Shown: piece by piece, positions 13,648-16,581 of the stretch | Position numbering within the stretch: position 1 is the first letter of the stretch | How the letters are laid out: every line of letters starts with the position of its first letter | Assembly: GCA_946894095.1 (NCBI GenBank) | Contig: OX335660.1 | Location: 10,545,001-10,609,000, forward strand | Direction: 5' to 3' | Length of the DNA: 64,000 bases | From: Incurvaria masculella | Lineage: Eukaryota; Arthropoda; Insecta; Lepidoptera; Incurvariidae | Position numbers and translations under genes: made by a program | The notes under the pieces: generated by a model | What the model was told of the DNA's origin: nothing | The model's input: the letters and a program-made list of their open reading frames with translations, nothing else | Database searches by the model: none

Positions 13648-13813
13648 GTCACAGCGGTGTTAACCAGCTCGGCGGCGTGTTTGTAGGAGGCAGACCACTT
13701 CCCGACTCCACGCGACAGAAGATCGTGGAGCTGGCGCACTCGGGCGCGCGGCCGTGCGACATCAGCCGCATCCTGCAGGTCTCCAACGGCTGCGTCTCCA
13801 AGATACTCGGCAG
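13648..13813 (+). CDS. ey: Pax6/eyeless, paired-box exon (PAI subdomain)
   Basis: The 166-bp exon encodes H-S-G-V-N-Q-L-G-G-V-F-V-G-G-R-P-L-P-D-S and then TRQKIVELAHSGARPCDISR, ILQVSNGCVSKILG and the first two bases of R. This is the beta-hairpin and first helices of the paired domain, which binds DNA through its N-terminal PAI subdomain. The residues FVGGRPLPDST are characteristic of insect ey. Phase 1 entry and phase 2 exit match the flanking exons. The donor is GGCAG|gtgaga. If it is missed, the next codon is TGA, so correct splicing is required. Its last 110 bp are copied 19 more times downstream (array at 13704-16581); only this copy has the exon start and the acceptor. Confidence 0.95.
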
Positions 13814-16581
13814 GTGAGAGTAGCACAGGTGTAAAGCGACACTTTCCGACTCCACGCGACAGAAGATCGTGGAGCTGGCGCACTCGGGCGCGCGATCGTG
13901 CGACATCAGCCGCATCCTGCAGGTCTCCAACGGCTGCGTCTCCAAGATACTCGGCAGGTGAGAGTAGCACAGGTGTAAAGCGACACTTTCCGACTCCACG
14001 CGACAGAAGATCGTGGAGCTGGCGCACTCGGGCGCGCGATCGTGCGACATCAGCCGCATCCTGCAGGTCTCCAACGGCTGCGTCTCCAAGATACTCGGCA
14101 GGTGAGAGTAGCACAGGTGTAAAGCGACACTTTCCGACTCCACGCGACAGAAGATCGTGGAGCTGGCGCACTCGGGCGCGCGATCGTGCGACATCAGCCG
14201 CATCCTGCAGGTCTCCAACGGCTGCGTCTCCAAGATACTCGGCAGGTGAGAGTAGCACAGGTGTAAAGCGACACTTTCCGACTCCACGCGACATAAGATC
14301 GTGGAGCTGGCGCACTCGGGCGCGCGGCCGTGCGACATCAGCCGCATCCTGCAGGTCTCCAACGGCTGCGTCTCCAAGATACTCGGCAGGTGAGAGTAGC
14401 ACAGGTGTAAAGCGACACTTTCCGACTCCACGCGACAGAAGATCGTGGAGCTGGCGCACTCGGGCGCGCGATCGTGCGACATCAGCCGCATCCTGCAGGT
14501 CTCCAACGGCTGCGTCTCCAAGATACTCGGCAGGTGAGAGTAGCACAGGTGTAAAGCGACACTTTCCGACTCCACGCGACAGAAGATCGTGGAGCTGGCG
14601 CACTCGGGCGCGCGATCGTGCGACATCAGCCGCATCCTGCAGGTCTCCAACGGCTGCGTCTCCAAGATACTCGGCAGGTGAGAGTAGCACAGGTGTAAAG
14701 CGACACTTTCCGACTCCACGCGACAGAAGATCGTGGAGCTGGCGCACTCGGGCGCGCGATCGTGCGACATCAGCCGCATCCTGCAGGTCTCCAACGGCTG
14801 CGTCTCCAAGATACTCGGCAGGTGAGAGTAGCACAGGTGTAAAGCGACACTTTCCGACTCCACGCGACATAAGATCGTGGAGCTGGCGCACTCGGGCGCG
14901 CGGCCGTGCGACATCAGCCGCATCCTGCAGGTCTCCAACGGCTGCGTCTCCAAGATACTCGGCAGGTGAGAGTAGCACAGGTGTAGAGCGACACTTTCCG
15001 ACTCCACGCGACAGAAGATCGTGGAGCTGGCGCAGTCGGGCGCGCGGCCGTGCGACATCAGCCGCATCCTGCAGGTCTCCAACGGCTGCGTCTCCAAGAT
15101 ACTCGGCAGGTGAGAGTAGCACAGGTGTAGAGCAACACTTTCCGACTCCACGCGACAGAAGATCGTGGAGCTGGCGCAGTCGGGCGCGCGGCCGTGCGAC
15201 ATCAGCCGCATCCTGCAGGTCTCCAACGGCTGCGTCTCCAAGATACTCGGCAGGTGAGAGTAGCACAGGTGTAAAGCGACACTTTCCGACTCCACGCGAC
15301 AGAAGATCGTGGAGCTGGCGCACTCGGGCGCGCGGCCGTGCGGCATCAGCCGCATCCTGCAGGTCTCCAACGGCTGCGTCTCCGAGATACTCGGCAGGTG
15401 AGAGTAGCACAGGTGTAAAGCGACTCTTTCCGACTCCACGCGACAGAAGATCGTGGAGCTGGCGCACTCGGGCGCGCGATCGTGCGACATCAGCCGCATC
15501 CTGCAGGTCTCCAACGGCTGCGTCTCCAAGATACTCGGCAGGTGAGAGTAGCACAGGTGTAGAGCGACACTTTCCGACTCCACGCGACAGAAGATCGTGG
15601 AGCTGGCGCACTCGGGCGCGCGGCCGTGCGACATCAGCCGCATCCTGCAGGTCTCCAACGGCTGCGTCTCCAAGATACTCGGCAGGTGAGAGTAGCACAG
15701 GTGTAGAGCGACACTTTCCGACTCCACGCGACAGAAGATCGTGGAGCTGGCGCAGTCGGGCGCGCGGCCGTGCGACATCAGCCGCATCCTGCAGGTCTCC
15801 AACGGCTGCGTCTCCAAGATACTCGGCAGGTGAGAGTAGCACAGGTGTAGAGCGACACTTTCCGACTCCACGCGACAGAAGATCGTGGAGCTGGCGCACT
15901 CGGGCGCGCGGCCGTGCGGCATCAGCCGCATCCTGCAGGTCTCCAACGGCTGCGTCTCCGAGATACTCGGCAGGTGAGAGTAGCACAGGTGTAGAGCAAC
16001 ACTTTCCGACTCCACGCGACAGAAGATCGTGGAGCTGGCGCACTCGGGCGCGCGATCGTGCGACATCAGCCGCATCCTGCAGGTCTCCAACGGCTGCGTC
16101 TCCAAGATACTCGGCAGGTGAGAGTAGCACAGGTGTAGAGCAACACTTTCCGACTCCACGCGACAGAAGATCGTGGAGCTGGCGCACTCGGGCGCGCGAT
16201 CGTGCGACATCAGCCGCATCCTGCAGGTCTCCAACGGCTGCGTCTCCAAGATACTCGGCAGGTGAGAGTAGCACAGGTGTAGAGCAACACTTTCCGACTC
16301 CACGTGACAGAAGATCGTGGAGCTGGCGCACTCAGGTGCGCGGCCATGCGACACAAGCCGTATCCTGCGGTCACCAACGGCTGCGTCTCCAGGATTCACT
16401 GCAGGTGAGGATGGCACACGTATAGAGCGACACTTCTCGACTCCACGTGACAGAAGATCGCGGAGCTGGCGCACTCAGGTGCGCGGCCGTGCGACATAAG
16501 CCGTATCCTGCGGTCACCAACGGCTTAGTCTCCAAGATACTCGGCAGGTGAGGGTAACACACTTTTAGAACGACTCTACCC
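13704..16581 (+). repeat. Exon-derived tandem array: 20 copies of a 144-bp paired-box/donor unit
   Basis: The motif gactccacgcgacagaagat recurs at 13704, 13848, 13992 and so on every 144 bp to 16296, with a last copy near 16439. Each unit is 110 bp of paired-box exon (DSTRQK to SKILGR), the donor AG|gtgaga, and 34 bp of intron. Unit 1 is the real exon's 3' part. Copies differ at a few sites: ggccg or gatcg (P or S in GARPCD), cac or cag, gacagaag or gacataag, gtaaag or gtagag. Copies 19-20 are clearly diverged. Because 144 is divisible by 3, the minus strand stays open for about 900 codons (13635-16331 and 13649-16474). Those frames are a by-product and not genes. Few base differences between copies imply recent expansion or homogenisation. 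Confidence 0.95.
16296..16547 (+). pseudogene. Decayed paired-box copies 19 and 20
   Basis: Both copies read ctccacgtgacag, so the CGA codon of S-T-R-Q has become TGA. Copy 19 has a one-base deletion in ctgcggtcaccaacgg and a changed donor region (cactgcag|gtgagg). Copy 20 also has cggcttagtctcc, a second stop. The sequence after copy 20 (gtgagggtaacacactttta) resembles the 34-bp intron part of the unit, so this end probably preserves the original exon-intron junction that was first duplicated. These copies cannot encode a paired domain. Confidence 0.85.

Follow-up and report, generated by a model that had tools for sequence, protein, structure and literature searches.

Exons of a likely eyeless gene

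The window, a stretch of 64,000 nucleotides of Incurvaria masculella DNA analysed as a whole, contains three exons (A, B and C) of what is likely the lepidopteran eyeless (Pax6) gene, a label given because of protein similarity. The exons are intact, lie in that order and have GT/AG ends, and exons B and C are in phase. The end of exon B is also the first unit of a long tandem array. The features are as follows.

11585..11681, + strand: exon A, from the ATG (MLPAQQ...DRMDDLAHKG), placed by tblastn and sequence; end at 11675 or 11681
13648..13813, + strand: exon B, 166 bp, encoding the paired domain's first half; preceded by AG and followed by GTGAGA; Pfam PAX, 1.2e-29
13695..16561, + strand: array of 20 units of 144 bp, each comprising the exon end with its donor and some 33 bp of intron, from TRF and exact anchors
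13814..19493, + strand: intron B-C, 5680 bp, from the exon boundaries
13839..16286, + strand: copies 2-18, with mixed variants and 1-4 differences per 144 bases from copy 1
16287..16561, + strand: copies 19 and 20, decayed (18 and 16 substitutions over 136 columns, a 1-bp deletion, an in-frame TGA), with intact donors
19494..19674, + strand: exon C, encoding the other half of the paired domain as YYETG...DNIPS and continuing the frame of exon B; Pfam PAX, 6.3e-30

The translation of exon A from the ATG at 11585, MLPAQQIGGIAPWPPDAAAVLDRMDDLAHKG, corresponds to the N-terminal exon found in Pax6 proteins of moths and butterflies. In tblastn with lepidopteran queries only, all six Pax6 proteins used (P0004, P0123 and P0125-P0128) matched it at 62-82% identity. 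Two donors lie 6 bp apart at its end (AAAG/GTAAAG/GTAATA, window 11670-11689, slashes marking the splice points), and both outcomes are found in moth and butterfly proteins, as HKGHSG in P0005, P0007, P0127 and P0128 and as HKGKGHSG in P0004, P0009 and P0126.

All 56 residues of exon B are the same as in the lepidopteran proteins P0004 and P0126, and the protein obtained by joining exons B and C had the PAX6 domain structure 6pax as its top solved-structure match (E 4.6e-69). The motifs VFVGGRPLP and IRPRAIGG are of the eyeless type, unlike those of P0093, the Bombyx protein named twin of eyeless. The Pfam matches in both halves of the paired domain, together with the moth-type exon A, bear out the original prediction that this is a Pax6/eyeless paired-box gene. 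No convincing match to a homeodomain was found within the 64-kb window; it may sit past the right end, and the moth protein P0128, which has these same exons, contains one.

Just before exon B, positions 13615-13647 encode INWSKQDY, a weak match (E 0.06-0.11) resembling the VINWSKQ.YGAAG extension that precedes HSGVNQ in Chilo, Spodoptera exigua and Trichoplusia proteins. As this stretch is out of the paired-domain frame, a longer alternative exon B seems to have been lost here.

Several other repeats were seen in the window. A tandem repeat of a 31-bp motif (AGGCTGAGATAAA...GTAACAGAAACTA) occurs at 11705-11950 and at 47323-47838; the former copy starts 24-30 bp past exon A and has near-palindromic arms, and the repeat looks like a small hairpin transposon. 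Some 18 kb past exon C, at 38032-38066, there are seven perfect copies of AACCT, the insect telomere repeat. An array of 40 copies of the 11-mer AAATGAAATGA occupies 59839-60273, and a 372-bp unit is repeated 1.8 times at 61430-62116. Open frames at 35333-35980 (+) and 45449-46039 (-) resemble pieces of non-LTR retrotransposon proteins; neither gave a Pfam match at E 0.001.

A tandem array of the exon B end

The array is made up of a 144-bp unit present in 20 head-to-tail copies at approximately 13695-16561 (+), copy 1 lying inside exon B, and it occupies the first 2748 bp of the 5680-bp intron B-C. TRF reported a period of 144 and 19.9 copies at 13696-16561, with 97% matches and a score of 5214. 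The anchor sequence CGACTCCACG occurs 20 times, first at 13703; successive occurrences are 144 bp apart in 18 cases and 143 bp apart in the last. With its head-to-tail units gathered in one place and a unit size between tens and hundreds of bp, the array has the layout of a minisatellite.

Each unit joins 111 bp of exon end, with the splice donor, to about 33 bp of intron; the exon share rises to 118 bp when CACTTyCC, which is common to the exon, is included. The exon start and the upstream AG (13646-13647) are present in copy 1 only. The 20-copy, 144-bp repeat of the paired-box exon end that had been predicted was thus recovered by TRF and by the exact anchors, as were the confinement of exon start and acceptor to the first copy, the inclusion of the splice donor in the unit and the position of copy 1 within an intact exon. 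The predicted division of the unit into 110 and 34 bp was close to the measured 111 and about 33 bp; the predicted array end at 16581 did not hold, the measured end being 16561.

Decayed copies outside the array were sought by comparison with shuffled sequences, and none was convincing: scores as good were reached by 43 of 200 shuffles when the 500 bp that follow were tested, by 55 of 200 with the 200 bp that follow, and by 103 of 200 upstream. For a possible remnant in 17062-19480, one of four stretches tried, only 3 of 200 shuffles did as well, but the match was very gappy and was likewise not convincing. An exact 24-base piece of the unit had no matches in viral, bacterial and archaeal DNA collections (viral_contigs and genome_contigs), and Rfam gave none at the gathering score. 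Open frames of 898, 912 and 941 aa run across the array (13635-16474) and are a trap for gene finders; for the 912-aa frame, none of 7994 scored candidate proteins matched at E <= 0.001.

Sequence differences among the copies

Copies 1-18 differ at nine sites. None of copies 2-18 is identical to copy 1, from which they differ at 1-4 of 144 bases, and copy 1 itself never carries the rarer base: it has the commoner one at seven sites, and at the other two both bases are equally frequent. Six variants in these copies are coding, of which five change the amino acid and one is silent. Copies 2, 3, 4, 6, 7 and 8 are mutually identical, while copies 5 and 9 have in common one variant absent from every other copy, so that it looks as if a block of four copies had been duplicated.

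In a four-combination test on copies 1-18, all four combinations were present for 11 of 36 site pairs, linked sites being counted separately, which would indicate exchange between copies; since all 11 pairs include site 132 or 136 of the unit, both in the intron, recurrent change at these sites without exchange could also account for them. Taken together, the nonsynonymous changes and the mixing of variants give the pattern expected of a non-coding minisatellite undergoing exchange.

Copies 19 and 20 carry 18 and 16 substitutions, respectively, relative to copy 1 in 136 columns, as well as one deletion, common to both, that shifts the reading frame. Ten differences are common to these two copies, including the deletion and a change that creates TGA in the paired-domain frame. 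On this pattern of variants, copies in the interior are either young or have been homogenised, and those at the outer end are likely old.

Third-position GC is 34/36 codons where exon B is repeated and 10/18 where it is not. GC-biased gene conversion was considered as a mark of the array and dropped: exon C, which has no array, is likewise GC-rich (58/60 codons), and the contrast within exon B is therefore uninformative about the array.

Splice donors in the array

The consensus-like donor CAG/GTGAG is kept in all 20 copies, the decayed copies 19 and 20 included. On the + strand, CAGGTGAG is found at 20 places within the array and at just one other place in the window (55086). Read-through of donor 1 gives AGG TGA, an immediate stop after the first half of the paired domain. 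A full paired domain is therefore predicted from donor 1 only, and donors 2-20 are predicted to be decoys, which, if used, would cut functional eyeless output.

Two in-frame, stop-free exons could be opened by AGs in the unit between donors 1 and 2. One, at CACAG/GTGT, would be 129 nt long and is preceded by 24% pyrimidine; the other, at ATCAG/CCGC, would be 48 nt (SRILQVSNGCVSKILG) and is preceded by 47%. The corresponding values for the real acceptors are 41% for exon B and 53% for exon C. The AG of the 129-nt option lies 15 nt past the previous donor, so that it could be used by skipping splices alone.

The unit folded no better than shuffled sequences, either as DNA (z +0.85) or as RNA (z +0.60 and +1.47). 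As the copies are direct repeats, the earlier suggestion that they would act as RNA-pairing partners is left unsupported. Expansion driven by a hairpin was rejected on the same folding result.

Exon-end pieces in other Pax proteins

Relatives of the array were sought with an artificial Pax6 peptide carrying three extra copies of the exon end, and the best 120 of 6195 matches (7966 candidates scored) were considered. The eyeless gene model P0123 of Chilo suppressalis, a single automated model, has a 62-aa insert, SVAAYVSTVDTHSAPCTRGVTLRHQPHAAGVQRIRVLDIWQPCNISRILQVSNGCVSKIFGR, between SKILGR and YYETG. Two decayed exon-end pieces, each in its own reading frame, lie in this insert, at the same exon junction as the array. 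The in-frame piece scored 88 against a best of 42 in 500 shuffles, and the piece in the second frame 69 against a shuffle best of 51, the two alignments overlapping by about a dozen residues. Like the 144-bp unit, both pieces are without the exon start.

Inserts at this junction, by the pattern used, were present in 5 of 191 proteins; the remaining 186 had none, which says little about the frequency of such arrays because protein records reveal intron content only where it has been modelled as exon. The junction inserts of P0097 and P0104 are unrelated, with scores not above those of shuffles. The Pax6 models of Portunus (P0002) and Homarus (P0003) contain a near-whole second copy of the first paired-domain exon at the junction, the diverged copies being DHIRHKIVEMAHSGVRSCD and DSTRQKIVELAHSGARPCD. 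In the Panagrolaimus Pax gene model P0122, the second half of the paired domain (ILCRYYESG...ETIPS) is tandemly repeated.

The presence of such pieces at the same junction in Chilo speaks against the array being purely an artefact of assembly and favours a moth feature that is either old or recurrent. It suggests that more than one lineage of moths has had this exon end duplicated, whether through a single ancient event or through several.

Origin of the array

We consider it highly probable that a likely lepidopteran eyeless gene carries here a 20-copy minisatellite whose first copy is the exon itself, and which likely arose by a duplication crossing the exon boundary followed by unequal exchange. 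The array would have been born by tandem duplication across the exon-intron boundary, the first event joining intron ...AGCGA to exon CACTTyCC through a short similarity (exon CCACTTCCC, junction ACACTTTCC). Unequal exchange between copies, as their sequences suggest, would then have brought about both growth and uniformity. Copies 19 and 20 would be the oldest, having escaped exchange at the edge of the array, and copy number is predicted to differ between individuals.

The identity of six interior copies is also what would be seen if the array, or most of its copies, were an assembly artefact made from a short local duplication, and because of it the exact copy number could still be a matter of assembly. 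An artefact as a whole is very unlikely, given that nine variable sites are mixed through copies 1-18, that the end copies have decayed by 18 and 16 substitutions, and that the Chilo model has exon-end pieces at the same junction. The original argument that site differences among copies speak against simple duplication by the assembler stands, with added weight from the mosaic of variants and from the Chilo pieces, and the repeat is likely to be real and old rather than an assembly error.

Two further explanations would give the copies a role in eyeless transcripts. They might act as a copy-number-dependent splicing brake, in which the donors are in use, drawing U1 or giving truncated transcripts with half a paired domain, and so set the dose of eyeless. 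The retention of consensus-like donors in 20 of 20 copies fits this idea, and the human IFI6 minisatellite, reported to provide multiple splice donors, offers a precedent; but the copies show no sign of coding selection, and donor retention in just two decayed copies counts for little, so that we regard a brake as quite improbable. That the copies serve as alternative exons, by which part of the paired domain would be repeated in the protein, is extremely unlikely, even though two AGs in the unit examined open in-frame, stop-free exons, the pyrimidine content before the 48-nt option lies between those of exons B and C, and the Chilo gene model takes such pieces as exon. The 129-nt option is poor in pyrimidine before its AG, five of the six coding variants alter the protein, and copies 19 and 20 contain a stop and a frameshift. 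It is mainly because the coding sequence is not kept, as it would be in a Dscam-like array, that inclusion of the copies is judged unlikely.

Comparison with known systems

The preferred reading, a minisatellite whose first copy is the exon, has partial parallels. Turri, Cuin and Porter reportedly described in 1995 that the minisatellite of IFI6 (6-16, G1P3) provides multiple splice donors. Two downstream repeat units of the human IFI6 minisatellite serve as splice donors in transcripts (PMC4526556). The two genes are alike in that a tandem repeat at an exon end sets several donors side by side, the eyeless units also carrying them in 20 of 20 copies. They differ in that the IFI6 unit is short, at 12 bp, and its downstream donors are used, whereas the eyeless unit is 144 bp long, 111 bp of which come from a conserved DNA-binding exon, and in that a later donor in eyeless would bring in a stop.

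The decapod Pax6 models (Portunus P0002 and Homarus P0003) are similar to the moth gene in that this region of Pax6 is present more than once, but theirs is one extra, diverged, near-whole and readable copy, in contrast to an array of partial exons with donors. Ordinary intronic minisatellites are homogenised by unequal crossing-over. The eyeless array is like them in its head-to-tail units, mixed variants, block duplication and diverged end units, and differs from them in that its unit was taken from a coding exon, and that exon is the first copy. In the literature searched, mostly outside subscription journals, no report of a tandem array derived from a Pax6 exon was found.

A more far-reaching interpretation is that an essential and conserved exon both founded its own satellite and still exchanges sequence with it, so being homogenised along with the copies, that moth eyeless keeps an old bank of copies of exon end and donor next to the paired box, and that copy number sets the amount of full-length eyeless; taken as a whole this is unlikely. 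If the array is real, a strongly conserved developmental exon lies inside an exchange-prone repeat, and coding sequence and satellite could trade sequence. Alleles differing in the number of near-identical donors would then provide a natural test of how splicing chooses one donor.
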